Shown piece by piece: positions 20,222 through 64,000 of a stretch of DNA of 64,000 nucleotides. The notes beneath the pieces were generated by a model, which was given only the letters and a program-made list of their open reading frames with translations, did not search any database and was not told the origin of the DNA. The first letter of the stretch is position 1. Each line of letters opens with the position of its first letter. The position numbers and the translations under genes were made by a program. The stretch lies in the NCBI GenBank assembly GCA_027382625.1, contig JAJKFJ010022513.1:1-64000 (forward strand). The letters are read 5' to 3'. Origin of the DNA: Tetmemena sp. SeJ-2015. Its lineage: Eukaryota > Ciliophora > Spirotrichea > Sporadotrichida > Oxytrichidae.

Positions 20222-23200
20222 TCATTTACGTTTTAGCAGAGTAACTTCACCGTTATCATTGCCTGTAGCTAAGAATTTATCCTCTCTATTTACTTTACTT
20301 GAGCTTATTCCAATGCATTTGATGCTGTCCCCCAAGTCGTTTCTCTCATCTACTATTTTATCTCTACTCCAGTCATAAACACTTGTAGAACCATTCTCGT
20401 ATGTTAGGACTATCGAATCTTCGTCTTAAACTGCGTTAGTGACTAAACTAGATTGCAAAAATTTAACGACCACAAAAAATGTTAAAAGTCTAGTGAGTCC
20501 AGTTCTTTGCCTTGAATCATGCGGCCACTCGAAACATCATACATTTCCATCTCGTTGTTGTAAAAGATAACTAACTCGCTCTTCATTTTGTGATTAAAGA
20601 GCACTTGCCCCGATTCATACTTGCGATCCAGTCTAATGGTTGAAATAACCTCCGAGGATCTAAGATCTCTAGAAATAACTGTTCCCTCCGTATCTAAGGA
20701 GGCAAGGATGTTCTCATGAACTGCAGCAGAGACAATTTCCTCCTCATGGTCGTACAAGATTACAGGGTTGGAAAAGTTTGATTGCTTCAAATCCCAAATA
20801 CGAAGAGTCTGATCACTTGAACAAGAAATGAGCTTGTCCTATTCAAAAATTAACTTGACAAGTTTATACATTCGCAAATAAGACTTTATTGATTATGTCA
20901 TCATGAGCATTAAAACTTGTGATAGTAGTCCCAGTCAAGAAGCTAAATACGTATATGCTATGATTCTGAGCAGCCAACTAAAAAATTAAATGACCAGATA
21001 ATAAGTTTACAGCAAATGAATCTTAGGAGCTCAATGAAGTTGCAGTGTTGATACCACTCTGGCAGACAAAGAAAGCTTTTTTGGTTTGACAGTCTCTTCC
21101 ATCTATCATTTTAATGAATCCATCTAATGATGTCGTAATGATTTTCTAAGATTAGCTGTCATTTTCATAAATGCAATGGATTGAAGTTATAGCATCCTTA
21201 TGAACTTTCTCAACTTGTCTGCTCTCGAAATAGCTGATTTCTTTAAAGATTGACTTTTTCACTTCACTCGAATCTTCTTCAACTTTGGCCTTCGTTTGGA
21301 TCTAAGAGGAATCATTCCCATCTCGTTAGCTCTTCTCATCTTGTACAATCTGCTTAAATTTTTAGTCAAGCTTTTACTCTTCATGTTCTTAAATAACTGC
21401 AGTAGCTGTCGATACGATTGATTCATAAGTAGCTGTGAGGGTCTTAGGAATAACCTTGGAATACTTTTGAGGGTGAGGCTTCCTAAAGAGTTATCTCGGT
21501 GTTTGACCAAACTCAGTAATTTAAACCTCAAATGCTATTCTTTGAACTGGATCAGTTAGCTTTTCAAAGTCGACGCTTCCCTCGTAAGTCAAGGGGTGAA
21601 AGAGGTTGAAGTCATCTATTGACCTCTGCTTGCAGCCAAATATCAAATCAATCCAAAGATGCAAGTTATTGGAAACATATTCACTCTCTAAAGCTTGACG
21701 CTACTTCCTTAGAAAATCCTCAGGAGAGCTTGCCCAGCGAGGAAGTTTAGCAGCATCCACTCTTTTTCCATTACTCCTCACTCCGAAATCTAACTTAAGC
21801 TTGTTGATAAGAAAATCAGGATCTTCCATATAAAATTCAGGGATCAATTCCTTGACGTTTCCAGGATTGGTATTCACACTATCCCATTCTTTATAGATTC
21901 CTTTGAAAAGGCGATTGGGGTTATCGAATTTACCTCCTTGAAATTTGATCATCCATTATGGGTACTGTCTTACAAGAAAGCCTATGACGTAACCAGGACA
22001 GCTGTAGTGAGTTCCATAAAGATATTTTTCTCCCTCTGGACACTCATTGTATCTCATGATAAATTCTTTCAGCCTTTTTTCGTTCAAAGCTCCAATAGGC
22101 TTTGATAGATCTCGATAGACTTTTGGGTCATTGAGGTCAAGGTTTTCTGATTTATAGTCCTTATAGAATCCAGGGAAAGACAGGGTATTAAGTTATATCT
22201 TGAAAGGATCTTTAAGCATAAGAGTTCAATAAAAATATCTAAGCTAAAATTGAAAAAGGATTATGATTATTCAAAAGGAGAAGATAGTCAAAATTAGAGA
22301 GCTATCCATTTACCCACATCTGAGTGTAATCAATAACAGATCTTTCAGTTGTAATGCAATCATCACTTACTAACTTTCTTAGCACTTCATAGAACTGATC
22401 GCGCTCTTCTTTTGTACTGAATGTTATATAGAAACTCTCCTTTTTGCTTCATTCATAGAATTCAAGAATTAAGAAATTAAATTTTGCTAGTCACAAACTC
22501 CAAGCCTATGTTAAGGAGTTTATACCTTCTCACAAAAAGCTCAGTGATATTCTTTATTTTGAAGTTTACTACAGGCTTTGAGTATATCTGATTGCAGGGT
22601 TGAAAGTATATTCTCTTATTTGTAAGATATAGTAAGCCATCTATTTGAACCATGGGGATGACCTGCCTCACTTTGAATTCTTTGGGCAGCATTGACTTCT
22701 CACTTACTGATTTAATTCTCGTCTTATCGAAGTTATTGTTTGAGAAAAACTCTGAATTTTAGAAGAACATCTTTAATATAAAATATGAAGTTCATTCAAT
22801 TAGAAAATATTCAAATATAAAAGCTCCAAAATATAAGCTTAATCTTGTCTAAATCTTATTCGTAATGGAAAGAATTCTTGGTTTTAAAAAGTTCATAAAG
22901 TTTGAATATCGACTTGTAGAGTGTTTCTACGCTTGAAAACTGAATATTGATCCAAGTTTCGTAGACCTCGGTCGACTTCATATCGAATTAGTGGTATTTA
23001 TATGGCTTGACAACGTTTTAAGCGGGCACTTCAACAATCTTTTAAGTCTACAATCTCAATGGTAATTTGCTTTTTCCCACTATAGAACTTAGAATTAACA
23101 TCTTAAAGATAAAACATCTGCCAATTGATTCTTGAAGTTTCTAACTTACCGAAGCTAGGCTCTTGAGCAAAGTATTTGAAGAGCAATTTGTAGATAGGCT

Positions 23201-23449
23201 GCTGTGAGTCATTCTCTATCTCTAGTATGATACTCCTCGAGCAAAAGTGCACGAATGCATTTGCCTCCCTAACAAGAAGTTAATTAAACCAATTGTATTA
23301 TGTATTTATCAATCTGCTCTAGCTTACCTGTACTCTTGGTAATGAACATCAAAGAAGCGGACTTGCCCAAAGAAGTCCTTGATGTATTGCTCTCCTTCCT
23401 CTAGATAGAGTAAATCAAATCGCTTTTTAGTTTGTCCTATTCCCAACAT
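20222..23449 (-). CDS. NSMAF: FAN/NSMAF-type GRAM-BEACH-WD40 protein
   Basis: BEACH proteins are large membrane-trafficking adaptors; FAN (NSMAF) is the small member with an N-terminal GRAM/PH-like part, BEACH and WD40 repeats. The start (ATG 23,449) gives [19 protein letters not shown], matching the FAN N-terminus. The GRAM-like segment (about 22,690-22,480) has [20 protein letters not shown]. The BEACH domain (about 22,310-21,540) has [56 protein letters not shown] and [14 protein letters not shown]. The WD40 part (about 21,230-20,222) includes [13 protein letters not shown]. The order and compact length (about 950 aa) favour FAN over LYST or neurobeachin. The first intron is 23,269-23,327. 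One IES (22,225-22,274) splits the BEACH domain. A single extra G near 22,165 shifts the frame after PWILQ. It is divergent from the J-domain gene. Confidence 0.85.
22225..22274 (-). other. IES, 45 bp, pointer TTGAA (in BEACH domain)
   Basis: Direct repeats TTCAA at 22,225-22,229 and 22,270-22,274 (TTGAA on the coding strand). Removing one copy plus the intervening AT-rich DNA joins [10 protein letters not shown] to SYAQRSFQDITQYPVFPW, the expected start of a BEACH domain. The insert has no GT donor, so it is not an ordinary intron. Confidence 0.8.
23269..23327 (-). other. Spliceosomal intron, 59 nt
   Basis: On the coding strand it starts GTAAGCTAG and ends TTGTTAG, between ...[10 protein letters not shown] and [18 protein letters not shown]. 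Both flanks match the N-terminal region of FAN proteins. Confidence 0.7.
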
Positions 23450-23996
23450 TTTTATTGATTTATCACTTAGTAGTATTATTAATTTCACTTTCTGTAAATT
23501 AATTTTTGCAAATATACAACCCTCTCATTCAAATCAATAGAAAAATAACACATAGGATTAAATGCTTCTCAGCATTTAATCAATGAAGGCTCCAAATTTA
23601 AAATAATAGTTTACTCATGTACCTAGCAAAGAGATTCCAAGTAAGTTTTTAAAATTAATCTAATGTTTTTTAATAACTTCTAATTTTTCAGGTTTTGGCT
23701 CAGGTTTTATAGTACTGGAAAGGAAAAATTAACTTTTCATATGAAAGTAATAATTTATACTTTTAAAACTATAAAGCAAATCTTAAATATTCCATTGAAT
23801 TTTTATTTTGAATAGTTATATTCTATCGAGAGCAAGAACATCTCCATCTTTAAATTATTCACTTGCTTTGTGCAGTATATAGTTTTAAAAATAACCAAGA
23901 GTGTTGTGTAAAAAGTTGGTTGAGTTTTGAATGCTTTTCGAAGATTAGATTCGTTTGGACTTCGTTTAAAGAGGTAGACCTAAGGGAGCAAAGAAT
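23450..23996. promoter_or_regulatory. Divergent intergenic region
   Basis: 547 bp between the start codons of the BEACH gene (-) and the J-domain gene (+). It is A+T-rich and must contain the 5' ends of both. No defined promoter element could be recognised. Confidence 0.35.
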
Positions 23997-28391: not shown

Positions 28392-31300
28392 TCATTAAAA
28401 CATTAATTATAGATGCAAATGAAAAGGCACATTAACCTGCCTTTAAAATATATTATTAGATGAATGAAATTATGTTAATGTCAAAAATCGAGCTCCTCGT
28501 AATTATTTATTTAAATCATCGAAATCATAGCAAAAGTTCTCATCCTACGGATCCTATTTTAAAATTGGATAATAGATTTCTATACTTATAAAATAAGTAA
28601 ATCTTTTGATTATTTTTATTTTCTATTTTTCAAATGGAAGATCACTCTGATTGTACTGTAATTCACTATGAATAAGGCTCTGGCCCGAATCTACTTTCTT
28701 TATCTTGGACTTGCCTTGAAAATGCTTAATCTGTAGATAATTTTCATCCATTGTCTGATCAAAATTCAATTGTGACTCATTTCCGGATACTGCTCTACTT
28801 CTTAGAGTGGGTAGCTTAGAATTGGAGTCCTTCTTCTGATTAGATTTGAATGTGAAGTCGAAGTCTTTGCTGCCTTAACTTTTCTACTTCATTTTCCTTC
28901 TCTTAGATAGCTGTGGTTTACTCTGACTTTTAAAAGTACGGTTGAGTGGTTCTACAGTGCTATTAGGATTAGTTGTCCCAGCTTCCACATCCTCAACAAA
29001 AATCTAACCTTAGGTCATCTCAGATGAAATAAAAATATAAACCTACATTTATATAAATGACTAGCGTGGGATGACTATAATCTTTTAACTTTGCAAGTAA
29101 TCCTCCAGAGAATTGTGGAAGTCAGATTTAATGGGCTCTTATGGAAATTTATCAGCCTTATAAAAATGAAATGAAAATAAGAATAATCTGATAATCTTAG
29201 TGTTCTTATAGTACTTGATGAGCTATTTTGCTAATTGGTTTACTGCAGAGATGAGGAAGTTCCAAATTATGAGTATTGAGTTTAGTATCAACTAAAATAA
29301 GACGAGTGAAATCGGCACAAAGCCAAGGTTTATCCTCATCTCATCTGAAATATCTGTCAAATATATTCCCATAAATAGTTAAAGTGAAGATAAGTGAGAC
29401 TTAATAATTTTCATTCAATAGAAATGGAGAAAATGAGTAGCAGGTAGCTATAAATATCAATTCGTTGAAGACTACAAGATTAGCGAAAGTTTCTATCGCA
29501 GTAGGGTCGGAAGTTAAGTACCATCATAAGCATCACTATTCCACATTAGATGTGCAAAAGCAAGCACATTTGAGGATCGTTGGGGAGGGCTATCTAATTT
29601 ACTATAAATAGTAATTTTATTATCATAAGCAATGAATAAACGATTCTTCTAGTCCAGTATGCGAATCCATAGGTTAGAATGTTTGAGCTTTCTATTCTGA
29701 AATTTTCAAATAACACAGACACCTTTTCAAGCCACTTTTTCTCAGATTCTACTTTGTAAGTTTTCTCTGTTGAGTTCAGAATCTCGGTGCTAAGATGCAT
29801 AAAATAAATCTTAATCGCCTCTCTTTGAGACTCTCAAATTTGTTGATCTATAACCTCTTGTTGATAACATGGATACTGTAAAATGGAAGTATGGCATTTA
29901 GTGAGGTTATGATTATTTATTACCTTTAAATATCCTCTCTACAATTTAATTTCAAATAATTAGGCCAATATTGATATGAGTGACGACATAATATCTCCTA
30001 TAGTTTCAAACCTCACCTATTAGCAAATATAAGAAAGTCATATTGAAGTATTACCTAGGAAAAGTTTATAAACGAACAAATTGTAAGCTCTAGCTAAGCC
30101 TCTGCAAAGAACCTCAAGATTTAGTTGAAAATAAGCAGCTCAAATATTTTGCGAGGTATATATCTGAACAATAAATGTTATACAAAGGAAATAAGTAGGA
30201 TACCTTTTACTGGTCAGTCCAAACAGGTACAAGCTCAAGCCAAAACAAGTCAATAGAGTATTAAAGAATAGGGCGTAGAACATCAGTCCTAAATTTTAAA
30301 TGAGATTAGTGGATCCATAGTTCATGAAGTCGAAATAGGGATTGAATGGCTCCAATTCGATATCATTAAAGTCAAAGATAGCGTTCGTGTATTCATCTGT
30401 GTCCACCAAATTCAGATTCACGATGTCATTTTAAAAATATTTAGAAGACTGAAGAAGCTCAGAGTGTTAGCTGGTAAGTTTATTGAAATCATAGGCAGGT
30501 GAGTAACCAATTAGAATCCTTCTATCATACCCCATATCGCTGCGAAACCTTGACTCAAATTTTAATTTTAAGTTTATTTGACTTCTAATTATACTTAGCA
30601 AAATGCAAGTTACTTACAAGAACAGGTTTATGGTGGAACTGAAACCAAAGAGTGTAATTATAGTGGCCTTCACAACTTTAAAAGATAATTTGACTTACGC
30701 TGCATAGTTTTGAGCATCCCACTCTGAACTTGATAGTTGGGCTTGAATGATTTTACTAATTTTATAGTCTTTAGGGATCTTGTGTAAGATGGTAGAATCG
30801 AAGTATGTATCCTCCTTTGAGAATGTAACTTGAATCGTGTCTAGATCTCTCTGAGAGACGGAGTTGAGTTTATCTCCAAAGTTAAGTTGTATCTTAAGAA
30901 ACGAGGAGTATTGATCTACGATTGTATATTTGACAGTATAGGTCGATTGGGATTGAATGAGTTAAATTAGTAGAGTGTTGTTAAGAGTTGCTGATATATT
31001 GGGATAAATAAACATGCTCTTTTCGAATTGTATGGTCATAAGCCCCGTAGATGATATTTTATAGATCTTTGCCTTAAGATCTTATGTAGCTTTGGCTATC
31101 TTTAACTTCAGCTCATATTGCTGTTTAGAAGTTTCGTTGAGGGGCTAGACTGTCAACTAAAAGCTAAAATTAAGCTGTATTGGTTAAAGAGTTCTAAGTT
31201 GTTAACTTGTGAGATAGTGACTTTAATCTCGTAAGTTCCTGCATCATTTCTCAGATAAAAATAATTTAATATAAGGAAAGTCCAAGGCCAGGTAATTTAC

Positions 31301-34708: not shown

Positions 34709-34789
34709 TATCCTATTTTAATAGTTTATAAGTCTTACTATGTCAACTCACTTATCAGAAACAGTCTCCATTAACAGTTGCCGCTACTT

Positions 34790-36269: not shown

Positions 36270-36414
36270 AAATAAATTTATAAAGTTTATTAACTCTGTA
36301 CAGACCATATTTTAATACTTATTGTGGAGATAAATTTGAAAATGTGAGTTTTAGCTAATTTAACTTGTGAGAGAGTGGAGTTTATAAGATTTAATTCAAA
36401 TTATTGAAAACGAA
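36270..36414. promoter_or_regulatory. Compact divergent promoter region, 145 bp
   Basis: This separates the start codons of the unknown minus-strand gene and the CSPP1-like plus-strand gene. It is A+T-rich. Its small size suggests a shared bidirectional promoter, or that the two genes form one two-gene nanochromosome. No element is identifiable. Confidence 0.4.
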
Positions 36415-39400
36415 ATGAGGCCAAGCAGTCTGAGGAGAGACCGTCAAAAGCAATTTAACTACATGACATAGGAGGAGCATGAGGCAGAACTTCGCAAGCA
36501 AGTAGAGGAAAAGAGAAGGCTTTAATAACTTGAGAAGGTGCAAAATCAGCAAGGAGATACTCAATCACTATAAGAACTATGCGCTGGGGGCAGACGACTA
36601 CAGCGGAGAAAACCCAGCCTACATGAAGGACCTAGATGCTTTAGTTCAAAGAAGGGAAAGAGAATTGGGAAACATAGGCGCTGGCTTAGGAGTAGGCATC
36701 GGCGGGGGACTGAGAACAAACGATGTCATAATGGGCGACATGAATGCGATAGTAAGAAGCAACTTGGCTGTTCTGAATAAGCAATAAATATTTTAAGGCT
36801 GGAGGTCAAGCTGGACCAGCATTGATTGATAGAGTAGTTTAGCAAGATAGGAAACCATTCGACCTCTTTAATGACAATTTCATTCAAAATTACAAGCAGG
36901 AGCAACAGCAAAAGAACAATGAGAACATGAACATCATCAATATCATCAGATCAATCTATCTTTAAGCTAATTAGCGCACAAACACATCCATTATGTCAAT
37001 AGCATCTTCGGAAATCCCTCTGGTGGTGCTTAAAATCACCCGAGTAGTCAAGGTGGAATCTCAGACGCCGAAAGTGAAAGAGAAAGAAGGCTTAAGTTGA
37101 GAGAGCTTGAGAGAAAGAAACGGTAAGAGGGCGTGAGCGGCGGTGACTATGGCCAGGTAGAGGCTCCAGTACAGACTTAGTAATCGAAACCGTAGAGCTA
37201 CATTTAAAACAACATATTTGGGCAGGCTTAAAATGAACCACAGCAAAAGCCAAGCTCGGCAGTTACTACCAACAATAACAAGAGAGATCAAATTTGGCAA
37301 CAGAAGTAACAGTAAAGGTTAGGATCGCAGGAGGGTGCAAGAATACCAAATCATCTGCCTCCACAGATTAACCCAATAGTGGGTACTCCAAGCTCTCAAG
37401 TTCAGTTACCGATATTCCAATCATAGGGCCTCGCACCAATAAATAGCACCTATGAACCTATGATTGAGGGTCACTCGAGAATCGATTCAGCGAATTCGTT
37501 TAACAACGTGAGGTCCTCAAGAATTATTTCTCATATTGCAGATGCAAGAAAGCTGGATTAATCCTATAACTTGGATTAGAAATAAACCCCTCAGTCACTT
37601 CCACCCTCAAATCCTTTGCTTGGAAATGAAGATGATTTCATGAGGAAGAAAAGGGAAAACGAGAAACTCATGCGTCAGAAAGAGTATTAAGATTTCTTAA
37701 GTAAGCAAGGCGGAGGCGGTGCTTAGAAATTCTCTAACATAAGCCAAAGTGAACAGAACACTACTCAGATTTCATCAGCTATGCCCTTCTAGCTCATAAT
37801 CTAGTCAAAGACCTTCCCAGAGAAATCATCCATAAATTTTCATTTACTATAATCTTCATGATGATATAATTATCAAGAAGGAGTTTAAGGGTCAGGTAAT
37901 AGCATCCTACTATAAGGAGGCTTAAATCAGTTAGGGATGAAAGACAATTCCACAGTAGATGAGAAGTTAAGGAAGCAGCGTGAGTACAAGTAATTCCTAG
38001 ATTAGCAAAATCAGCAAAAGTAGCATCAAATGTAACAGTAAAAGGGAGGTGCCCCTGCTTCAGGCTAGGATAGAAAGAAAGAACTTAGTGATTAGATATT
38101 TGCAGAAATCATGAGCAATAGCAAGCAGAATTTTTATCAGCCAAGTGTCGGTGTTCAGTAAAATCAAGGATTCCAGCCAGCTATGAACATGCAACAGTTC
38201 TAGAATGCTCAATAAGTATTAAGATAACTGTATGATTACTTTTAGCTCAAGTTATAGCGCCCATGGATATTTCAGGTATGGGTGGCTATCCCATGTATGA
38301 TGGACAAAGAGATCTTAGTCAAAATCAAGAAAGGAATATGATGTAGGATCCAAACTAAAATGGAGGGGCGGAGTCTTGCTAAAGAATCAATTGTCTTAGA
38401 ATGATGAAAAGAAAATGGCTTTAGAGAAAAAGAAAGAGTACGCAATGTTACTCTAATAACAAATTGCCTAAAAGCAGCAAATTAATACAGAGCAAGCAGA
38501 CTAAAGAGGTAGGAGAGGGTTAAAATTTTTTTAAAAAAAGTTTAGATTTTTATGAAAGGGTCCAGTAACGCTCTGGCCCAAAATCTACAACAATAACAAT
38601 TTGTAAAGCCGGTTTTTGAGTACTAAAATCCTAATTCATCTCAAATACAAATTTTTTAATAGAGAATAAAATTCAATGCCCTCTTAGTATGGAATGAATC
38701 CTCAAATGGATCAATAATTTTAAGGTTAGGCTATTGGATTCCAGCAGCCTCAGTATTTTGCTCCTTAGTATGGGGGTGTAGGAATGGGAGATATTTCCCC
38801 TTTGAATAATTAGCATTAGTAATTTGGAGGTGGCATGTTTCCAACTGATATGGGTATGCAGCAGTATCAATAGTAGTAGTAATAGCCAATGAACCCTCCT
38901 CCTAATATGATGGCTCCTTAAATGCATCCCTCAGCTATGACTAATCAGGGCAATGACTAAGCAGCGATGTAAAAACTTAAACAGGAGGAATACAGAAGAG
39001 ATCTTGAGATGCAAATTAAACTTAAGGAAGAGTAAAAGAAACAAGAGCAAATCAGTTAGTAATTCTTCTTATCGTGTGTGTATGTATGTACTGTCGATAT
39101 AATTGTATGACTAAAAGCAGGATAAGGATTTTGCGTAGCTGCTTTAAAAAGAGCCAGTGAATAAACCAAGAGTGGGACATTAATTCTCATCAGAGCAACT
39201 TCAAGGTTATCCTTCCTAAGCACCGGGTGAATTCTAAAACCCTTATGCAGTACCATAGCAAATGTATCCATTAGGGATGCCAATCCAAGAGCCCACTAGT
39301 GCAGGCTATGCCCAAGTAGTCCCTCCCTCTCAACAGTCTAACTTTGTCAGACAGCGTACTGACTTAACCCGAGGAGCACAAGACTCTGAGCAGGAACAGC

Positions 39401-42400
39401 AAAAAGCACTGAGGCAGTTGCAGTATCAAGAAGAGCTGAAGAGATAGATGGAAGAGAAGAATAGAAAGAAGGAAGAGGAGAAACGTAAAGAGAAATAGGA
39501 GGAAGAGGAGTACGAACGCAAAGTCCAATATGAAAGAGACCTCCTTATCTAGAAAGAGCATGCTGAGTTGGTCAAGGACGGCAAGAGAGATCCTAATGCA
39601 CCTTATCAGCCACCTGAAAAGAGGAAGTAGATTAGAAGAGATTAGTTTGAGCCCAGTTCCGAAAATCCTAATGTAGTATAGAGGATTTAATTAGAATCAA
39701 TGCTTTATAATCGGTTATTTGGATGAATCCAAGTGTCAACGGGATAGAAAATCCTAGTAATAGTAGTTAAATCGGATAAAGCAATGACCCTTGGTCACGT
39801 CCACCAGCCGTAGGTCTTGACAAGGGAAGCTTATTTGGCGGCGATAAGAAGCCAAGTATTGGGCTGGACTTGCCTATGAACAATAGAAGGGAAGACTTAT
39901 TTGGAGCAGGCCCATCAGCGCTTCCACCTTCTTATGAAAGAGAAATTAAAATATGCTTTATACTTTAATTAAAATAGGCTTCAGTGATTAGGATAGATTT
40001 AATCCGGCTCCTTAGTTCTAGCCTCCACAATCTAACTTTGGAATGGCTCCTTCTCTTTAGCCCTCTTTCCCTACTAGCCAGCCTCTTCAATTTTAGAATC
40101 CTTATAGCTTGAACTCTCTCTAGCCCACTCAGCAAGCCTCAGGTGCCAGTAACAATAGCATAGTAGATGAGTAGTCGAAGTTAATCTCTATGTATCAATC
40201 AGCCCTCTCCCAAATTCTGGAGATCAAGAACTAGTTCTATGAACAAGCAGTCCATATGAATGAAAAACTCATCAAGGAAAGAGAGCAGCTACTCGAATAT
40301 GAGAAAATGAAGCAGCAGTAAAATCAAGAGATTCAATCTCTACAAGCTGTCTACCAGCAACTTGGATCGCTATTGACTTAAAAGCCAAACTCAAATCAAA
40401 GCAACTTTGGTGGACCTTAGATTGGCTAGAGCATAAACCCTATCTTAAATCCCTAGATTTAATCTAATCTCAATAACCTCATCCAATAGCAGAAGGCAGA
40501 CATCTTGAGACTCAGTTAGAGTGGAGGACTCAATCTTAACTAACAGAGGATGTAGATGCAATAGCAATTTGCACAGCAAAAGATGGGAGGTATCCAGGGA
40601 GGTGGTGGTTTCATGCTGCCAGTTATAGATGAGTCTCAACCCAATATCCTTGAGCAGTCTCTATCATCGGATACTAAATTTGTCGTTGTGCCTCAAAACA
40701 AGTTAGCTTAGATCGCAAGTCAAGCCAATAATTTATAACAATTTGATCAAATAAAAGCTGATTATGATAATTTTTGATAGGTACTAGCTCTCTAACATCG
40801 GAACTAAATTTGTGTTGCCTAATCAATTAGCTTTAAAGTCCTTCCCAAAATTTTGGTGCATCAGTTTCATATCTGAACTTCACCAGCCTCAACTAGGTTA
40901 AGCTCAACAGACACTTAATGGAACTATGCTCAAATCCTTGGCTGGAAACTCTCAATTCATTCAAAACCCTAATAGTGCTGCTACTCAGATATAAAATCCA
41001 CAACCTATTCAATCTAGTGGTACTCCTCAAAAATTGTCAAACCTAAAACCTGTGCTCCCTATAGGGTTGCATTCAAGGCCTCAAACCTCCACTCTTCCTC
41101 CTGAAACTATTGTAGAAATGCCAAGAGAGGAAGATGACTAAGTGAACCAGTCTCGCTAAGGATTGAGTCTGAAGGAGCAGTCATTGAAACAACTGATACT
41201 CTAGCAAAGTGAGCAGCAAGATCATCCTGACTTCAACAGTAGAGAATCCTCGAGGAGAGGAAGCATGGAGGATGTACATAGAGCAGCAACTGGTATGAGT
41301 GGAAGAGCTATCGAGATAGACATTTAAAACCAACAGGAGTCTCTGAGAAGGGTAGAGAGTAAGATTTCAAACTCTAATACCATCCAGCAGAACATGATCA
41401 CAAATACTAATCCTCTTGGAAACACAACAACCATCCAGGAGAACATGCTATAGATCGAGAATATGCTGAACGGCAGAGGCAATTCAACTTTGACTAAGCC
41501 CTCGCAGTCAAATCTCTTACCTTAGCAGCAAACCCCTCAGAGTTAAATGTCTCAACCCTTGAAAATGACTATGCAACAATAAAACTTAATCAGCCCTAGT
41601 GGAAAGACTCAAGGCAACTTTAATTAAGCAGGAGCTACAGGTTCTTCCTTCTTCAACTAAACTTACTACAATCAAAAGCTCTAGGAATAGTCCTAGATGG
41701 AGGAGCTTCAGAAATAGTTGATGAGGATATTTGGCAACACGAACCCTGCTGCTCAAAATGGTTAGGAATAGGGCATTCTCGAGTAGATGCAACAGAAACC
41801 AGCGACCCCTCTACTGAACTAGCAGCACCAATAGTACGTAAGAGAAAGTGCTGACTCAAACTAATATGGGTATTCTTAGACACAGGCTAAATAAAATTTA
41901 CAGAACCAGGGCTACTAGAATCCTTTATAGAGAGCTAGTATGAACGAGAAGGTAGGGACTCTCATGCAAGACGAAAAGGATCTATTGATGAGAGACGGCG
42001 ATATAAATATCGCAGATTCTATGCCAGGCACTTAGTAGATGGAGTAGATTGTTTAAATTGCGAATAAGAAGTTTTCAAGCAATGGGTTTTATAATGGACC
42101 TGCTTAATACGATCCAAACATAGTTGATGAAACCAAGTACCTCCCAGATGAACAAGACTTTAGATAAGTGATATATTTTATTTTAGGATTGGTATTTGAA
42201 AGTGAATTAGAAGCCTCTAGAGTCTCAGAAATCAGTGAAAGCATATAACTTCGCAACCGAGTCAGATTAAAATGTTGGACCTAGTGAAATCAAGCCAAGA
42301 GTGGAGGATTCAAATGCAAACCTACTTCAAACTAACAAGACCAAATTATTTAGAAATATTTTCACAATGAATAAGTTATTTTTAGACCAACGATGACTTG

Positions 42401-43243
42401 TGGAACGATCCCGACTTGATACCTCCTCCAGTGGTGATGATGGGCAACGAGGATGACGACTACTACTTCCAGCCTCAGGTGAATTAGAGTCAGTTCAACT
42501 TCCATCAGTCCGCAGGCTTCAACCAGAGTCAGATCCAGGATGGCACTCTCAAGAACCTGCAAATGTTCAGTCCACCAAGCGACGACAACAACTACAATCT
42601 AGCTTAGTACGATGGAGAGCAGAGTCAAAGCCAGCAGCCTTTCGATAACTCCCAAAGCCAACAGTACTACCAGCAACTCTACAACCAGCAGGAGTAACAG
42701 CAATATTACGAGTAGTAGCAGTTCCATCATCTGAGGACTCCCTCTCAATAGCAGTAGCAGAGGCAATACGGGTTCTAATAGACTCCATCTCATCAAGTTA
42801 ATCATCAGCAGCAGCAAATTCAGGAGAACACTGGATAGTTCAACAACATACAGCAGCAGATGATGGAGAAGACCCAAGCCAGTGCCATCTCCACTAGGAT
42901 GCAGGACTAGATGAGTGAGAGGTCAAAGACCAAGAAGGAAAGAGACATCAAGGAGATGATGGAGGTAGCCCAGCTCATCCAGAAGGCAACTGACGCCACC
43001 AACAACTTGTTCGACAACTCCAGCAACTTCAAATTCAAGATCAAGCGAGAGAATATCAAAGAACCAGATTACAACTCTAACTAGACTCATTAGTAACCAA
43101 CCTCAGCTCAATCCAACAGGAAGCCTCTCTAAAAATAATAGAGAATTTTAAATTCACAGACTACTAGCACAATTTCACTATAATTCAAAATACGATTAAA
43201 GATATAGAATATATTCCTCTAGCTCATTTCTTTTTGGGCATGA
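36415..43243 (+). CDS. Giant CSPP1-like coiled-coil (centrosome/cilium) protein
   Basis: The ATG at 36,415 opens MRPSSLRRDRQKQFNYMTQE. The protein (about 2,200 aa) alternates Gln/Asn/Pro-rich linkers with short basic helices of one recurring type: EAELRKQVEEKRRL, KRENEKLMRQKEYQDFLSKQ, KLRKQREYKQFLDQQNQQ, ALEKKKEYAMLLQQQIAQK, KQEEYRRDLEMQIKLKEE and YQEELKRQMEEKNRKKEEE. This 'K-x-EY-xx-L-xx-QI-xx-K' module is characteristic of CSPP1/CCDC66-type ciliary proteins, which bind microtubules at ciliary tips and centrosomes. The family assignment rests on these modules only. Very many Gln codons are TAA/TAG. At least six IESs of 14-46 bp interrupt it. The frame ends at TGA 43,241, overlapping the 3' end of the convergent neighbour by about 19 bp. 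An alternative is a generic Gln-rich cytoskeletal scaffold. Confidence 0.65.
36535..36554 (+). other. IES, 16 bp, pointer AAGG (or 16-nt intron)
   Basis: AAGG at 36,535-36,538 and 36,551-36,554. Removal joins RRLQQLEK to EILNHYKNYALGADD in frame. The removed piece can also be written GT...AG, so an ultrashort intron is possible for this one. Confidence 0.65.
36779..36797 (+). other. IES, 16 bp, pointer AAG
   Basis: AAG at 36,779-36,781 and 36,795-36,797. Removal joins SNLAVLNK to AGGQAGPALIDRVV in frame. The piece starts CAATAAA and cannot be a GT-AG intron. Confidence 0.75.
36936..36955 (+). other. Probable IES, 14 bp, pointer ATCAAT
   Basis: ATCAAT at 36,936-36,941 and 36,950-36,955. Removal changes the frame so that ENMNI-IN continues into LSLSQLAHK and then GNPSGGAQN. 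The local sequence is repetitive (ATC/TCA), so this is the least certain of the set. Confidence 0.5.
39944..39976 (+). other. IES, 23 bp, 10-bp pointer AATTAAAATA
   Basis: A perfect 10-bp direct repeat at 39,944-39,953 and 39,967-39,976. Removing one copy and the 13-bp spacer joins PPSYEREIKI to GFSDQDRFNPAPQ in frame. There are no splice-site sequences. Confidence 0.85.
40742..40778 (+). other. IES, 31 bp, pointer TTTGAT
   Basis: TTTGAT at 40,742-40,747 and 40,773-40,778. Removal deletes an in-frame TGA and joins ASQANNLQQFD to RYQLSNIGTKFVLPN. Confidence 0.8.
42338..42390 (+). other. IES, 46 bp, pointer AGACCAA
   Basis: AGACCAA at 42,338-42,344 and 42,384-42,390. Removal joins NLLQTNKTN to DDLWNDPDLIPPP in frame, avoiding a TGA just after the second copy. 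Confidence 0.85.
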
Positions 43244-50474: not shown

Positions 50475-53400
50475 ATGGATAGAATTGTGAAAATATTCGC
50501 GTTAGCAAGCGCTTTGCTATTCGCATTAGTTACTCCTTAATGCGCTTTTACAAATCCAAATTGGTTTGCTGATCTTATAAAAAATAGAGAATTATTTGAT
50601 CTGTATGAGACTGGTTATGACTTAGCATTTTATGACATGGTAACAGACATTATGTAATTAAAGTTTTTATTAAAGATTATATTATAAGACTATTAGAGCA
50701 CAGTGTATTTTTCAGCATCAAGAGGTGGGACGACTAAAGTAATTTACGCATCTATGAGCACCTCAATGACCTTGAACTGGGCAGTCTACTATGGATCTGG
50801 CACCACTGCCACTGTTCGCTTTATGACTATCGATGAACTCACTTATAACTACTTCTATGCTACTTCATATAAGAAATTAAGATAATATGTATGCTGCAGG
50901 TAATGCAAATTCTCACAGCTTCAATGCTAACAACCCTGCCAATTAAGTCTTTGTGCAAAGAGTTTCTACAACTGATGGCTCGCTCGACTGGTCTGTCTAT
51001 CTAACTATCCCACATAGTATTTATAAAGCAGGTTAATATTTGTCTACTGGGGTTTGACATCTGGAGCCAACTACGCAACTAGTATGACTCTGTCACCGGA
51101 CGGAGGTAAAATTTTGGTGACTGCCTAAACCATAATTTAATATTTCTTGAAAAACATTTACCATTAGTTTGTTCTCTCATTATATTTTAGTAGACATCTT
51201 TTCAACCCACAGGATAGACAGGCCTGGCATCTGTCTTGCTCTTAATTGGGAGCGACGGTTCTTTTTACTGGGCCAAAACCTATGGCGACTTCTCCACCTT
51301 CTACTCTATCAGAGCTTAATTATGTAAAAATAAATGTCATATATTTTTTCTCAATGATGTAGCTTAATGCGTTTTATTCGACTCGAGAGGAGAATACTAT
51401 TACGAATCTTATCTGTTCTTATTGATTTTAATGATATTAATCTTTGAGTTATGCCTTGATTTCAGCCACTAGCGTTTCTAGACCTCTAATGAAGGCAACT
51501 CTGCTGACTTCTACTTCTTACAGTGATCTGTGGACTCAAAATTTCGGAACTGCAACGGGAGGTGCTATCATGCCCACAAAGGGCATGAGCTTGACTCCAG
51601 ATAACTCACTCATCATTCAGCCATTCAGCAACTCTAACTCAGACTACATCAATCTCTAAATAAAATTTTATAATGTGAAATGTATAACATGCAAGGAGGT
51701 AATGCTTAATTTGCTAATTAAATTTTTCTTTTCAAATGCTTAGTTCTCAGTGGTTTGCTTCTAGACATCCACAGGAGCAATAAACTGGTTCAACCATGTT
51801 GCAGATACAGCCAACTCACTTACCTCAGTAGATGGCGATCTGAGTCCTGATGGGACGCTCTATTACTCTCTTGCAACCAAATATCGATCATGTTTATTTT
51901 AATAGCAATTAGAGATACAGGGAGCAGCAAGAAACCTATGATCATAACTTTCAAAGTCCTTGATGGCTCTCGCACCAGTTTCTCGTATTATGGATCTGGC
52001 TCAATAACACCCGCAGCTTTAATAGTCACCTAGAATAATAGATTGTAGCTATTGATGACATTTAATTTAGAGATTGATAGTTGGAGCAACTATAGACAAG
52101 TCAAGTTCCTATGCTAAGAGCAGCTCGAACGATGATCTATTTGTGGCCAACTGGGGATACCTCTTAGCAGACAAAACATAATTAATTTAAGTGAAAATTA
52201 TTATAATGTAATGAACATGCAGCGCCTTCAATTTTGTAAATTCGATGCCAGGCACTATGACTGTCTCACTGCTCTCAACAGCCTCGCTGCTTGTGCAAAC
52301 TAATGTCACCCTAAACACCTATTTTATCAACCAAGCCATTTCAAATAATCAAACAATAAAATTAAATTAAAATTACTTTGATTTAGAAGATAACTCCAGT
52401 ATCAGGTCTCACCTCTACAACTTCAAGCATCACTGCTACTAGCTTGTATTCCAAGTGCAGTGCCAACGATTTGATCTTCACTACATCTGTTTCTTCCTAA
52501 ACCATTAAGACCCAGACAGCCTTCTCCCTCGTATAGACTTCTTATTGCTACGCTGGTTCGGGATCACTCACTTCCACCACATACACTTCCACTCTGATAG
52601 ATGGCTCATCTCTCCCCTCTTGGCTCACTTTCTCCTCAGGCTCTCTTCAGTGGTCTGGCAATCCTTCTTATATAAAAGTAGCTTTCATTTTTTATGATGT
52701 TAAACTTCCTCTCCAGGAATTTATTACATAGCTCTAATCGGCACGTTTGTGATTTCAGGTACCACTCATCAAGTAGTCTAGGTGTGGTAATTTCAAAAGA
52801 ATTAGAAAAATTTGTAAAGAGAATATTTTTTAAATGGCAACTGACCGTGCAAACAAACTCCCCTTAGCTTTAGTATGCAATCCCTTCCTTCAGCTAGAAG
52901 TGTCTCACACAAATATAGTCTGAATATTATTTGTGCTAAAGTGTGGAACTCAATTCACCTACTCTTTCGATAGCAGCACTTTCGGTGACTCTGATGGATA
53001 TGTGCTGACCTACTCCTCCTCATCTTATGCTTCTTCCATTCTCAAGAACTTACCGTCTTGGCTCTTCAATTAATAATTAAAGCATCTCTTTATTTATTGA
53101 GATCATTTTAATGATATGTAGGCTGAGCTTTTCACCAACCAATCGAACATTTGCAGGGAGTGCTCCTGATGTCCAAGATGTAGACATTAAGGTTGTAGCC
53201 ACTGACCCTTATGGTCTCACTGCTTCCACTACTTTCTCCATATCTTTAAAAATAAATTAACATATAATTGCTTCAATATAATAATTATTAAATTGGAATA
53301 TATCCTTCACAAATACTGCCCCTGTCATAAACACACAGATACCAGACATGAGTATCACAACAGGCCAACAATTCATCTATAAAATACCTACTAACTTCGC

Positions 53401-55482
53401 AAGTGATGCTGATGGCCACACCCTCACAATCACAACTAACATAGCATCCATGCCTAATCTTATCAACTGGCTCTACTTCAATCCAGCCAGTTTAACTTTC
53501 TCAGGAATAATTTACAAATATGTAATTTATTCATCTTAAATAGCCACAACAAACATTGAAGGATCCTACACGATAACAGTCACAGTAAGATATTTTATTA
53601 CTTATAGTTCTTATTATAGGTTGCTGATGGATTTACGGGCGGCACTACCACTGACAGCTTTGTCCTTACAATCAACTCTTATTTTGCAATTAATCTCTCA
53701 TTCAATATATTTAATAAACTCTGTCCCAGTATATAACTATCTTTCCACTGTTCTACCATCTTCCTTCACATTCGCACAAGGAACGAACACTATATCTTTT
53801 GCTGGCTACTTCACAGACCTCACTCCCTCCTCCACTTTGACATACAGTATCTCCATGGCTAATTCTCTTCCAGTGGGATCTTGGCTCTCCATCAACTCAG
53901 CAACTGGAGTGCTCACTATCACTGCTGGTACTGCAAATGTAGGCTACAACTATATAGTCATCACTGCAACAGATAACTCTTCCGTTTATTTTTATCTTTA
54001 TAAAATGGTAAATACCAATATAACAACGGAGCTAGCTATTCTGAGTTTACTGAGATCATAATAAATCAAGCTCCAACTTTGAATGGATCACTCTCTGACT
54101 AGACTGCAATTGTTGGCATACCTTACGCTTTCAAAATTCCTTCTACTGTGTTCAAGGACATAGACTTGCAAAACCTTACTATAACTTGCCAGCAATCTGG
54201 TGGGTCATTCAAATTATATTTCCATTATAACTCAATAAGAAATAAGATTGATCAGCACTTCCAGGGTGGTTGACTTTTGACACTTTGAGCAATCTTCTCT
54301 ATGGAACTCCCACTTCCTCAGATGTGGGGTCTTATATATTCTAGTTGCAAGCTACAGACCCGTTCGTTCTCACAACTTCTTATGTCTATATGAACTCTAT
54401 TAAAACATCATGAATAATTTCATCATTTGTAAACTTTGAGGTAGTTTCGAATAACGCCCCTACAATCCGCTCCGGCCAGACCATGCCAACTGTGAATCTG
54501 CGCTCTATGCAGGACTTCTCCTTTGTGATTCCTGATGCTCTATTCTAAGATGTGGATGGAGACAGCCTTGTGCTTAATTTGATGCAATCTGATGGGACAG
54601 ACGTGCCCTCTTGGATGATGTTCTCTCCTGTTAACAGGAACGTCTACGGCTTTGCAAATGTCGCAACGAGCAAAACTTACACTATCAAGATCCTTGCTAC
54701 AGATCATTCTATAATCTATTTCAGTATTTTCGCTTTTGAGACCCTTTCAAAGCCTCAGCCTCTGCAACGTTAAAATATTTATTTTCTCAAGTTATTTGTA
54801 AAACATTCACTCTGAACATCTTGGCTAATAAGGCTCCATTAGTGCTAAATGAAATTGGGCATGTGACTTCTCAAATGTTCATGTACTTCGAGTACCAGAT
54901 TCCAGAGAGCATTTTCAGAGACGAAGATGGAGACTCGCTCACTTACTCTATGACTCCTTATGACCTCACTCAGACGACCCCAACTTGGCTTAAGTTCATT
55001 TCAGGCAACCGCTCTCTTAACGGCATGCCAAAGGACGCTGAAGGCTCAACTCTGATGTTTAAAATCTATGCTGACGATGGAAGAGGCGGACTCAGCTATT
55101 TAAATAGGAGATATTTATCTGTGCATGGTAGCTATCAAGTTTTGTACTTAGATGTGCAAGTGAACTACAACTTGGGCAAGTTAGTTCCGTTGATACTGTT
55201 TGGAATGCTGCCCCTAGCTGCGATCTTTGCATTCTCCTTCTCTATGGCTTTTGTCAAAGTAAACCTAACTCCATATCATATTCTTTATTCATATTTTTTC
55301 TTATTTTTTAATAAGAACTCTACTATATGAGTTTACCAACCATCGAGGAAGATAAGGTCATTGAACTTGCCAGAACTGCATCAAGAGAGTTCTCATCTAC
55401 TAGTGGACCTGACTATGACACTCTAAAGAAAGCCCTTGAAGAAAAGATAAGATACAAGTAGAAGCAGCAAGCCCAAAAATGA
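50475..55482 (+). CDS. Secreted/TM protein with beta-propeller-like and cadherin-like (CADG) repeats
   Basis: The ATG at 50,475 starts a classic signal peptide (MDRIVKIFALASALLFALVT, then PQCAFT). The first half has repeating units with Ser/Thr-Asp-Gly-Ser turns (SASRGGTTKVIYASMSTS; TTDGSLDWSVYLTIP; LLIGSDGSFYWAKTYGDF), like a beta-propeller. The second half has at least five dystroglycan-type cadherin-like repeats: F-D/S-DADGHTLTI...LINWLYF; FQDVDGDSLVLNL...VPSWMMFSP; FRDEDGDSLTYSM...PTWLKFISGNRSLNGMP. One TM helix (KLVPLILFGMLPLAAIFAFS) precedes a short cytosolic tail (PTIEEDKVIELARTASREF) and TGA 55,480. Several short breaks (about 50,656-50,698, 51,030, 51,130, 51,660, 55,257-55,310) are introns or IESs. 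It is probably a cell-surface adhesion or recognition protein. Confidence 0.8.
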
Positions 55483-55747
55483 TCGAAAGAAATCTAAGAC
55501 TCAAACAAGATATATCTCTATTTTTATATTCCAAATCTTTTATTTCATTGTTAGAAATAAATACTCAATTTAAATGTCATCATGATAAATACGCTGCAAT
55601 TAAATTCTTTTTTCAGTTACTTATTCCTTTGAGAGAAATACTTTATTCTTAATTTTTATAATATGAGATTATGTGACTTCCATTGAATTGATTTTATTTG
55701 AAAAAAAATATTAATTTCTTCAAATTATCAAATTAAACTCTATTATT
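55483..55747. other. AT-rich convergent spacer
   Basis: 265 bp between convergent stop codons, more than 75 % A+T, with nothing else recognisable. Confidence 0.35.
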
Positions 55748-60365: not shown

Positions 60366-60669
60366 TTTAAACTATATTTCATTTTATGAGAAGATAATTT
60401 TGGTGGTGGAAAGGAGAAAGTTGAAGGCCATTCTAGTTTTGGCTGAATGACTACTGATGATTGTCCTATTTTTGCATTTGCTCACTCTAAGTCATTTAAA
60501 ACATATAAAATAAATGGTGTAAAATTTGAGAGGCAGATTGATTCTGATGAAAAGGTTTGAGTGAGCTGCTCCTCAGCTGTGAGTTATTCACTCTCTACTT
60601 TTGACTAAATGGGTTTGAGTTCTAATCAAAAATTAAACATATGAAAACAGTAATATAATCTTAGTAGCT

Positions 60670-60987
60670 ATGATTGCTGTTAGCCTAATAAGAGTTTTGG
60701 GATTTTTAATTAACCGGTTCCATTGTTATTATTATAAGAAGCATCTAAATAAAAATTCAATCAAATTTAAAGTAGATAGATATTATGCATTCGATAATTC
60801 AGTTCAGTTGTCTATTAATTTAGAGTCAAAAGAAATAAAATGGAAAAATCTAATTTCATAATAGTTGCCCTCAAGGTACCTCAAGCTTTATATAGTAGGC
60901 GTATTTTATTTCAATGACTATGCTAACCCATATAAGAATTACTTACTATGGTATACTGCTCAAACATAACCTTTCCTCTTTTAATGA
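60670..60987 (+). CDS. Small hypothetical ORF with hydrophobic N-terminus
   Basis: From ATG 60,670 to TGA 60,985 there are about 105 codons if TAA/TAG are Gln. The start MIAVSLIRVLGFLINRF looks like a signal anchor. The rest is Tyr/Lys/Asn-rich (HLNKNSIKFKVDRYYAFDN; LYIVGVFYFNDYANPYKN). It sits in A+T-rich DNA between the PH gene and the flippase gene, with no neighbour on its own strand. It could be a small gene, an exon or chance. No family recognised. Confidence 0.3.
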
Positions 60988-61367
60988 TAATAGGTTTCCG
61001 TTTCATTTTCCTATTTGTGTTATTACTTTTTTCTTTTAGATTTGATTTATAATTGAGAATTTATTAAATGCTACAGATTTTGAAGTATCATATTTTTGCA
61101 GCAATTAATCGTGAAGGAAAAGCTTGAAATATGACGTGGTTTTCTTTGTAAATAATTGATTTATTGTTAAATTATTAATCCTTGTGATGAATTTAAATGA
61201 TGCGACTGTGAAAGACTTTCTTAAATTGGTAAAAAGAACAAAATTAAAGCAGTGTGGATGTGTGTGTGTTGCTTTAGTCGTTTATTTCAAAGTCAATGCT
61301 ATTTGTATGAGAATAGATTAAGTCTTTCTCTCTACTCATAAATCAAACCTTTCACTCATCATCATCT
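60988..61367. other. AT-rich spacer downstream of the flippase gene
   Basis: About 380 bp, A+T-rich, with a short (TG)n tract (TGTGGATGTGTGTGTG) at about 61,254-61,270. No gene signal. Confidence 0.35.
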
Positions 61368-64000
61368 TCATTACAAATATGAATTCTCTGTTATAATTAG
61401 TTCAACTGCGAGAAGTCTCCTCTTCTCATCTGAAAGTTAGAGCTTATTCTTAAGACCCTTGGAGAACTTTTCAAGAAGCTGAGGGGCAGAATGATCTTCC
61501 TGAGCGAAGGCATAGCCACTGCGCTTAATGGTAGAAGTTCTCTTTGGCAGTTGTTGCTTCTCCAAGATCATCTTATCATAGAACTCTCTCTCTGCATCAT
61601 CCTTAGCACTCTGGCGAGAGTCGCTAAGGTTTACGAAATAGTTGACCAGGTCCTAGCTGATCTTATCAACTGTGAATGTTAAGAAAAGCATGAAGAACAG
61701 GGAGAAATAGGTGGTTGGTTGGGTCAGCAGCATTCCAGACACTCCAATCAAAATTAGATTAATTTGTGGGTTTTGTTGATCAGATCTGAAGAGATTCTTA
61801 TCTTGTCCATGACAGCCAGCACTATGAAGTAAGATAGAATGGACAGGATGACATTAAATAAATGGATCTCTTTAACTTATTAAAGAAGATGACGAGCAGC
61901 TCTCCCCAGAATTGGAAGATGTTAAACGACCCTAAGATTATTTTATTATGACGATGTATACAAATAATGAGATCTTCATATTGGCAATCATCACTACACC
62001 AGCATAGACAACAGAGCCTGCCAAGAAAAGTTTTATTACTAAAATACATATATTCTTTAAGGTAGCTTAATTAAAAGTCCGTTGTTGAGACCATCCTCAT
62101 CAAGTCCTCTGTCAATACAGTATAGTCCAACGAACATCACAATAAGTGCTTGGAAGGCTCCATTTCCGAACCATAACCAGAAGACGCGGGTACCAAAGCA
62201 TTGATTTTTTAGACCTATTTTGTAGGCGGAGGGTGTGGTTAGGAAGTACTCCTTTTCATGCTGGAAGTCCATGATAGCGTACCAGACTATGGGAACTGAG
62301 GCAAAGATGATGTTGTACAGCTGATAAATGATTGCCTCATATAAAGTTTGACCAGAGAAAGCTGAAAAGAATCCAAACCAGTATTAACAAAGAAAAGATA
62401 CAAGCATACTTACTACTAATGATATTATATTGAGGAAGGACGAAGAGTGCATTTTTGTAGAAGTTATAGCACACAAGGTAGGCGTTTCTTCGATAGGCCT
62501 CTCTTCCATGCACGAAGAGGAGGGGCTTTAGGAATCTGAACTGCCCAATCACAAAGTCAGCGCTTCTAGCTGCCTGCTGTCCCCCCTAATCCACTGATAC
62601 CAACTCCGACATGAGCTGTAGTGATCAAATTTACATCTTCTAAAAACAAGTCAGATCATGTTAACATCATTTGCTCCGTCTCCAATTGATAGTGTTGTCT
62701 TTTAGGGGAACCTGTCTCATCAATACATTAGAAATGACAAATTCAATTCCTGATCTCTAACTACTTGAACGATGTCAGCTTTCTACTTCGGAGAGACTCT
62801 GCAAGCAAGCACTACGTCAACCATGTCTGAGAGTTCAAGGAACTTGTTCTTCAGAGGTTCATTGCCAAAAATGACAGTCAAGGCTTCTCCAGCCACAATC
62901 AGAGCTTTCTTGCCTAAATTAAAGATGATGATTTTTATTGCAGATCAAAGATGATACGGCCTTTGCATCACCAATAGATTTGCTGATAGCTTCGTTGAGC
63001 TCGGGAACGCTCCTCTCAGTTATAAGGAATTAATCCATATTGTTATCGAGAAGTCCACTTGAGTATCCAATATTGATGGCTGTCTCCACTTTATCTCCAG
63101 TGAGAACCCACACCTTCACTCCAGCCTCTCTAAGGAAGCGAATGCACTCAGGCACGCCATCTTGAAGTTTGTCTTCGATGGCAGTTGAACCAATCAAATC
63201 CATGCCCACTTCAATCTTCTCATTTACATCTGCAACCTTCTAATCTCTATCTTGCACTGAAGCCATAGCTGCTTCAAACTCCGAATTCCAAGCTGCGTAT
63301 TCAGTAGGATCGAGTACTTTCTCTGCTAGAAGTAGGGTACGCAGACCTTCCTCAGCGAACTTGTCAACGAAGCTTTGAGTGGCAGTCAATATATTTAAGG
63401 AAGCAGGGGAAGATCTCTAGTTAAGTAGAGGCATGATGATTGAATCAGCTCCCTTGCAAAGTAGCTTAATTTGGCCGTAGACATCTTTCACAACTACACT
63501 CATTCTCTTTCTAGTGCTATTGAATTCCAAAATGTTCAGTAACTTAAAAGTTAGATGCTTGAATATTTTAAGGAGTCAAAAAACTTGAATTGCAAGCGTT
63601 CTCCTTTGAAGTCTATGAGCATGTTATTGTCTTCGTCTCTTTTCAGGAAGGTCACTCCGAAGAACTTGGCTCCATTTACAAGAGCTAACTCATCAGGCGA
63701 AGCTCAAAATTACCTCATACTAGTAATCAGCTATACTATTTCCAGTTCTTTCATCAAGAATGATAGTATGGCAGAGAGCCAAGTGAAGCATGACTTCCCT
63801 TATGTCATTATAGTTGACTGAGTTGATGTTCTCAAAGTGCTCTTGGAAAACGGGGTCCTCGAAATTCACATTTTCAATTTTCTTGTGAGTGGGCACCTTA
63901 GCTAATATTAACTTTAAATCAGATGAATGCATTTCTTATTTTCAATATAGAGTTAAGCTTTGATATATAAGTTACGATTAGATGTGCCATAGGCATAGTT
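61368..64000 (-). CDS. P4-type ATPase (phospholipid flippase), partial at right edge
   Basis: P4-ATPases flip aminophospholipids to the cytosolic leaflet. Moving leftwards from the edge the frame shows the P/N-domain ([54 protein letters not shown]), then [40 protein letters not shown] and the hinge [10 protein letters not shown]. The membrane part follows: [59 protein letters not shown] and [21 protein letters not shown] charged cytosolic tail ends at TGA 61,368. The phosphorylation motif DKTGT lies beyond the window. Three IESs (62,026; 62,623; 62,715) and one 52-nt intron (62,362-62,413) were verified. A run of six C (62,581 area) puts the frame one base out within [13 protein letters not shown], probably a sequencing indel. 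Confidence 0.9.
62026..62078 (-). other. IES, 47 bp, pointer ACTTTT
   Basis: AAAAGT on the plus strand at 62,026-62,031 and 62,073-62,078. Removal joins DEDGLNNGL to [16 protein letters not shown], restoring the last transmembrane region of the flippase. Confidence 0.85.
62362..62413 (-). other. Spliceosomal intron, 52 nt
   Basis: GTAAGTATGC...GATTCTTTTCAG on the coding strand. It joins VLPQYNIIS to [16 protein letters not shown], a highly conserved flippase segment. Confidence 0.85.
62623..62657 (-). other. IES, 31 bp, pointer GATC
   Basis: GATC at 62,623-62,626 and 62,654-62,657. Removal joins [10 protein letters not shown] to [14 protein letters not shown], exactly the expected P4-ATPase sequence. 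Without removal a TGA follows NMI directly. Confidence 0.9.
62715..62757 (-). other. IES, 39 bp, pointer GAGA
   Basis: TCTC on the plus strand at 62,715-62,718 and 62,754-62,757. Removal joins [10 protein letters not shown] to [16 protein letters not shown], the family consensus. Without removal a TGA interrupts the frame. Confidence 0.9.

Follow-up and report, generated by a model that had tools for sequence, protein, structure and literature searches.

Several genes in this hypotrich DNA have reading frames broken by short AT-rich inserts lying between matching repeats, which raises the question of whether it is unprocessed germline DNA carrying IESs, a set of genes with ordinary introns, or a collection of decayed or misassembled genes. 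The window, by which we mean the whole stretch of 64,000 nucleotides that was analysed, corresponds to bases 1-64000 of a 156,617-bp contig (C3170) in an assembly of 146 Mb and 5213 contigs. An earlier note on this DNA had proposed that some thirteen such breaks are pointer-flanked IESs of unprocessed germline DNA. The best-fitting reading is indeed that the window comes from the micronucleus of a hypotrich, as germline DNA not yet processed, with short matching repeats on either side of its AT-rich inserts and with a P4-ATPase gene interleaved on both strands, for which DNA-level excision and reordering are predicted; we put its probability at about 95%, and its strongest support comes from the scrambled, partly inverted P4-ATPase gene with its 13 ordered pointers. 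The length of the host contig was also counted for the germline reading (157 kb; an excerpt of PMC9797194 gives an N50 of 3.7 kb for the macronuclear genome of Oxytricha).

Genes in the window use TAA and TAG as glutamine codons and TGA as stop, and the nearest proteins found are those of Stylonychia lemnae (68% identity for the flippase, 74% for the FAN protein) and Oxytricha (85% for the FAN protein). The junctions were placed by aligning proteins of relatives to the DNA with a program of our own, in which a jump over any stretch carries a fixed cost in every codon phase and repeats and splice sites are ignored. The templates were the S. lemnae flippase P0001 and two FAN proteins, P0122 of S. 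lemnae and P0121, whose EukProt number we take to be that of Oxytricha. Homology is needed here: in DNA this rich in A and T, a repeat that restores a frame can nearly always be found. When the whole window was run through a coding-path model based on codon usage, with skips permitted between any repeats of at least 4 bp, the score on the plus strand (1398) fell among those of eight control runs in which the repeats had been shifted by 11-32 bp (1385-1409), and that on the minus strand (1805) was barely above its eight displaced-repeat runs (1771-1799); there is no signal on the plus strand and a slight one on the minus strand. Orthologs changed the lengths first read at three junctions from 55 or 39, 26, and 8 bp to 73, 41, and 35 bp.

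The first of the two genes aligned encodes a FAN-type BEACH-WD40 protein (85% identical to P0121 and 74% to P0122 over the searched region), and its features are as follows:

20222-23448, minus strand: interrupted FAN-type BEACH-WD40 gene (PF02138, E=2.7e-85).
20446-20492, minus strand: less certain predicted IES of 47 bp, pointer TAG, from the alignment to S. lemnae P0122; a rival reading is a 26-bp GT-AG stretch.
20839-20869, minus strand: GT..AG stretch of 31 bp, probably an intron; its removal restores the frame inside a WD40 repeat, and the relatives' gene models omit this part.
22230-22274, minus strand: predicted IES of 45 bp, pointer TTGAA; removal yields LLLNSYAQRSFQDITQYPVFPW, matching S. 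lemnae (second copy 48 bp, pointer kept).
22449-22488, minus strand: predicted IES of 40 bp, pointer AGCAAAA, from the free-jump alignment to Oxytricha P0121.
22774-22846, minus strand: predicted IES of 73 bp, pointer AAGAT; both relatives give the identical junction (second copy 77 bp, pointer kept).
23080-23149, minus strand: GT-AG intron of 70 bp, from the Oxytricha frame and family members (second copy 72 bp, with 18 substitutions).
23269-23327, minus strand: GT-AG intron of 59 bp, from the free-jump alignment (58 bp in the second copy).

One removal of 16 bp on the earlier list, for which the candidate is 23041-23056, is contradicted here: Oxytricha and two other family members read through it, in another frame, after the 70-bp intron. 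This stretch does not differ between the two copies of the locus described below. We also note that 20839-21010 resembles a WD40 repeat, and that both the Oxytricha and the S. lemnae FAN gene models skip it.

The second gene, which encodes a P4-ATPase (flippase), lies at the end of the window and runs beyond it. Its parts in the window are listed here, each simple insert being supported by alignment to P0001 and having its pointer also in a second copy:

61368-64000, minus strand, and on to contig base 64795: C-terminal part of the P4-ATPase (68% to S. lemnae P0001), with the rest on the plus strand at 65229-66787.
61853-61893, minus strand: predicted IES of 41 bp, pointer GTCATC (second copy 42 bp).
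61939-61973, minus strand: predicted IES of 35 bp, pointer ATCT.
62032-62078, minus strand: predicted IES of 47 bp, pointer ACTTTT (second copy 49 bp).
62386-62431, minus strand: predicted IES of 46 bp, pointer AATA, with a decoy GTAAGT inside; the rejoined PQYWFGFFSAFSGQ equals S. lemnae exactly.
62628-62658, minus strand: predicted IES of 31 bp, pointer TGATC.
62719-62757, minus strand: predicted IES of 39 bp, pointer GAGA (second copy 41 bp).
62914-62941, minus strand: insert of 28 bp, pointer GCAA, whose ends can also be read as GC..AG, from the alignment to P0001 (one substitution in the second copy).
63546-63586, minus strand: predicted IES of 41 bp, pointer AAGTT, from the alignment to P0001 (second copy 40 bp, pointer kept).
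63902-63975, minus strand: GT-AG intron of 74 bp; the residue count is preserved in the alignment to P0001.

A 23-bp removal on the earlier list, for which we take 61844-61866 as the candidate, gives way to the 41-bp removal at 61853-61893, pointer GTCATC, which the ortholog fits. Reading the 46-bp insert instead as a 52-bp GTAAGT..TTTTCAG intron costs two conserved residues.

Taken together, the free-jump alignments yield eleven firm inserts of 28-73 bp (73, 40, and 45 bp in the BEACH gene; 41, 28, 39, 31, 46, 47, 35, and 41 bp in the flippase gene), plus the less certain one of 47 bp in the BEACH gene. The 12 inserts that were tabulated are AT-rich (mean GC 0.22), and eleven of them lack GT/GC..AG ends, the exception being the 28-bp insert (GC..AG); the frames that the inserts interrupt run free of them in the relatives. 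The earlier list gave thirteen lengths, which we matched by gene and length as they came without coordinates. Six are recovered by the free-jump alignment: 31 (62628-62658), 39 (62719-62757), 40 (22449-22488), 45 (22230-22274), 46 (62386-62431), and 47 bp (62032-62078). Beyond the two contradicted above, five found no placement (14, one of the 16s, one of the 46s, and two of the three 31s), and one of the unplaced 31s is probably the GT..AG stretch at 20839-20869. Conversely, the 73-bp insert (22774-22846) and inserts of 35 and 41 bp in the P4-ATPase gene had been missed, and those of 47 (20446-20492), 28, and 41 bp lie outside the range that the earlier note covered. Its statement that the rejoined protein matches its family residue by residue holds at the confirmed BEACH and P4-ATPase junctions; for the cyclin that it also named, a homolog search at a strict threshold (E 1e-40) returned nothing.

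For the shortest of the listed removals (14, 16, 16, and 23 bp), the repeat pairs are probably chance matches in AT-rich DNA rather than marks of IESs: orthologs contradict one 16-bp and one 23-bp candidate, displaced repeats are nearly as useful in restoring a frame, and no insert confirmed in the window is shorter than 28 bp. On the other side, a P4-ATPase paralog has junctions of 16 bp (with a 3-bp repeat), 25 bp, and 26 bp, and short IESs may exist.

The repeats themselves are present at the homology-defined junctions far more often than chance would give, and in this respect the original observation of repeat-flanked breaks stands, whereas restoration of the frame by a repeat is a weak criterion, displaced repeats scoring nearly alike. 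Of 36 junction rows obtained, 27 passed a flank filter (at least 40% identity over 10 residues on each side, neither a gap nor a further jump within these flanks, and a length of at least 8); GT/GC..AG ends are possible for 8 of the 27, the 28-bp insert being kept out of the remaining 19 on account of its possible GC..AG ends. Repeats of at least 4 bp were found at 11 of these 19 rows (10 of 18 distinct junctions, one having been counted twice), compared with 2.4% of 20,000 random placements with equal slack, and the mean repeat was 3.3 bp, compared with 0.84 bp in those placements. As we read the eight rows without a 4-bp repeat, three (37, 21, and 25 bp) are scrambled junctions, three come after stretches that the gene models of the relatives leave out, one is a plain alignment gap, and the last is the TAG junction, with 3 bp.

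P4-ATPase paralogs on other contigs, with a flank bar of 50% over 8 residues, gave repeats of at least 4 bp at 14 of 25 non-GT/AG junctions and none at the other 11; this count omits L041, L046, and L047, which we read as second copies of counted loci, and L044 gave no row. A run with shorter pieces of some of these loci does not enter the count. Examples of the inserts in these paralogs are those of 30, 46, 62, 31, 29, and 42 bp on contig C2873 and of 44, 36, 44, and 40 bp on C2964. Longer ones were seen at L050 on C2964 (545 bp; repeat of 17 bp) and at L037 on C1795 (346 bp; repeat of 11 bp), and both of these also permit GT/GC..AG ends.

The organization of the flippase gene goes beyond simple interruption. 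Its residues 1-255 are missing upstream on the minus strand and are found instead on the plus strand from contig base 65229, outside the window; the N-terminal part occupies 65229-66421 on the plus strand and the remainder lies on the minus strand, interleaved with six small plus-strand pieces. A search for inverted words of at least 8 bp gave 13, each 8-12 bp long, that occur in strictly the same order at 66410-66787 on the plus strand and at 64795-63695 on the minus strand. In order, these pointers are TTCTGTGAGGAA, TTGGAGCT, AAAATCTTTGA, CTAAGATCAT, TAGTGCCAA, AGCAAATCAT, TTCGTTCA, GCGCCATCAT, ATCTATCA, CAGCAGGA, TCAAATCT, GAACTGGAAA, and AGCTTCGCCT, and two have members inside the window:

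63695-63704, minus strand: scrambled pointer AGCTTCGCCT, partner on the plus strand at contig base 66778.
63739-63748, minus strand: scrambled pointer GAACTGGAAA, partner on the plus strand at contig base 66759.

Between alternate pairs lie the six plus-strand pieces, each 25-31 bp long including the pointers, which encode what the minus strand lacks; around them, residues agree with S. lemnae at 50 of 55 positions. A removal of 28 bp with the repeat AGCT, at 63704-63731, was rejected, as this is actually a scrambled junction with its missing piece on the plus strand. The pointer chain totals 122 bp, a value reached by none of 5000 shuffles (best 84) and none of 400 other stretches of the window (best 64), and a repeat of 8-12 bp marks all 13 junctions of the scrambled-gene assembly. 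Joining the 14 blocks through these pointers, taking out 15 simple inserts (among them one more, of 49 bp, with pointer TGAA) and two introns, and omitting one extra base, gives 3698 bases with 1219 codons to a TGA stop, and 856 of 1172 aligned residues of the product (73%) are identical to S. lemnae. The predicted macronuclear order thus begins with plus-strand 65229-66421, passes through the 13 pointers by turns of minus- and plus-strand pieces, and closes with the minus strand from 63694 to 61368. The weak junctions in this reassembly are the first N-terminal one (TAT) and a 26-bp one at 61760-61785. The plus-strand half of the gene is present on one contig only. A blind scan for scrambled loci yielded too many chance chains to be informative.

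Two further contigs carry second copies of parts of these loci. One (C541, 16,272 bp) matches the window and its flank at 50112-66374 with 94.5% identity, and the first 8000 bases of the other (C1516, 10,462 bp) match 21163-29165 at 92.3%; we read both as the probable other haplotype, the alternative being close paralogs. Long DNA queries against the organism's own genome missed these near-identical copies, and an empty result from such a query does not mean that there is no other copy. All 12 comparable IESs (nine in the flippase gene, three in the BEACH gene) occur in both copies, with frame-changing differences in length at six (41/42, 47/49, 39/41, 41/40, 49/50, and 73/77 bp), a difference of three at one (45/48), and equal lengths at five. 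Over 529 columns of IES sequence the copies show 51 substitutions and 16 gap columns, compared with 118 and 3 over 4003 columns of coding sequence (Fisher P 3e-11 and 7e-13), and two of the three coding gap columns are the extra single bases of the window contig, the third lying in the insert near 61766. This pattern shows that the inserts are free of coding constraint. The GT-AG introns also diverge between the copies as the IESs do, so that the second copy by itself does not separate removal from DNA from removal from RNA.

The pointers behave differently from the inserts. They are the same at 11 of the 12 IESs (ten by script, GCAA from the printed ends), the one change being AGCAAAA to AGCAA at the 40-bp IES (22449-22488), in which 16 of 40 bases have changed, compared with 2.4% in the BEACH exons. 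For the scrambled pointers, 11 of the 13 minus-strand members are identical in the second copy and two differ; that contig ends at 66374, before the plus-strand cluster. From the retention of a 5-bp pair in so altered an IES, and from the variation in length at 7 of the 12, one could speculate that pointer pairs are held while the inserts turn over freely, that a matching pair together with a guide from the old macronucleus, rather than signals inside the IES, would fix the cut sites, and that the intron-like IESs (the 28-bp GC..AG insert and the 46-bp one overlapping GTAAGT..TTTTCAG) may be caught in an exchange between RNA and DNA removal, an idea that we consider rather unlikely.

The simple inserts could be spliceosomal introns, short and in part with unusual ends, that are removed from RNA. 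Several breaks in these same genes are, as a correction to the earlier note, ordinary GT-AG introns of 31-74 bp (predicted at 59, 70, 31, 33, and 74 bp). The GC..AG ends of the 28-bp insert, the GTAAGT..TTTTCAG overlapping the 46-bp one, and the like divergence of introns and IESs between copies point in the same direction, whereas the lack of GT/GC..AG ends at 11 of the 12 tabulated inserts, the frequency of repeats of at least 4 bp far above chance, and the two conserved residues that the decoy intron would drop all argue for IESs. Moreover, splicing cannot join inverted, interleaved pieces, and therefore at least the flippase gene would need DNA rearrangement, which makes it very likely that this is germline DNA with IESs; intron status for the simple inserts is highly improbable, and we infer that each of them would be removed from DNA rather than RNA.

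Still less probable is that the broken frames and inverted P4-ATPase pieces reflect pseudogenes or assembly errors. There are indeed two places, 22159-22161 in the BEACH gene and ~62581-62587 in the flippase gene, where one extra base breaks the frame in the window contig and not in the second copy, and the plus-strand cluster is known from a single contig. However, two other contigs, 92-96% identical, have the inserts at corresponding positions, the coding parts have almost no indels, and neither 13 ordered pointers nor an intact product of 1219 residues would be expected from misassembly.

In the germline reading, and judging from excerpts of PMC9797194 and PMC10901763, the inserts would be excised at their pointers and the scrambled pieces reordered during macronuclear development, with templates from the parental (old) macronucleus guiding the cuts and transposases making them, as described for Oxytricha; the GT-AG introns among the IESs would presumably be spliced later from RNA. 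A whole-genome search for the DDE_3 transposase gave 921 candidate places, and all 150 that were scored lay above the cut-off. A C4A4 repeat, sought within ~1.5 kb of three DDE_3 loci, was absent at all three, and these are therefore not called TBEs.

Elsewhere in the window, the large gene at 50480-55500, which carries a He_PIG (putative Ig) domain, is broken by AT-rich DNA in many places, and substitutions or indels between the copies cluster at 51305-51380, 51655-51720, 52675-52710, and 53247-53290; further IESs or introns are likely there. The stretch 30089-30568 belongs to a gene for which 18 other contigs give 26 matches, at 69-87% identity, and a Pfam search with the open frame that spans it (30143-31243) gave zero matches, as it did for the long plus-strand open frames at 36923-37858, 40509-42284, and 42371-43240, which by eye are rich in glutamine codons.

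DNA polymerase alpha is a classic example of a scrambled gene in hypotrichs. The present locus differs from odd-even scrambled examples in that it is a P4-ATPase, that its six plus-strand pieces are so short, and that simple IESs lie in both flanks, and it resembles the odd-even genes with an inverted segment in having two alternating clusters, one of them inverted, and pointers longer than those of simple IESs (excerpts of PMC9797194). Here the means are 4.8 bp for 13 simple and 9.4 bp for 13 scrambled pointers in the flippase and BEACH genes, a contrast partly built in by the 8-bp floor of the scrambled search, and this agrees with the statement in the same excerpts that scrambled pointers are generally longer. 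The simple inserts are like the non-scrambled IESs of Oxytricha trifallax, Tetmemena, and Halteria, as described in excerpts of PMC9797194 and PMC10901763, in that they sit in coding sequence between short AT-rich pointers of which one copy is expected to remain, in genomes that also contain introns; at 28-73 bp they compare with medians given there of 73 bp for Oxytricha and 104 bp for Halteria, ours being a small sample from two protein families. With the IESs of Paramecium and Euplotes they would share being short inserts that are eliminated. In contrast to the TA that bounds those IESs (an excerpt of PMC10901763), TA is not found at both ends here; the simple pointers are 3-8 bp long and varied (AAGAT, AGCAAAA, TTGAA, GAGA, TGATC, ACTTTT, and others), and gene scrambling is present.

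This kind of rearrangement is already known, and the P4-ATPase locus is a new case of it, for which exact and checkable predictions of the macronuclear DNA can now be made. What was a guess from the letters has become a tested gene map in which likely IESs, introns, and scrambled junctions are told apart, and direct gene annotation of this assembly without unscrambling would often be wrong. The paired copies, finally, offer a natural test of what fixes the boundaries of IESs.
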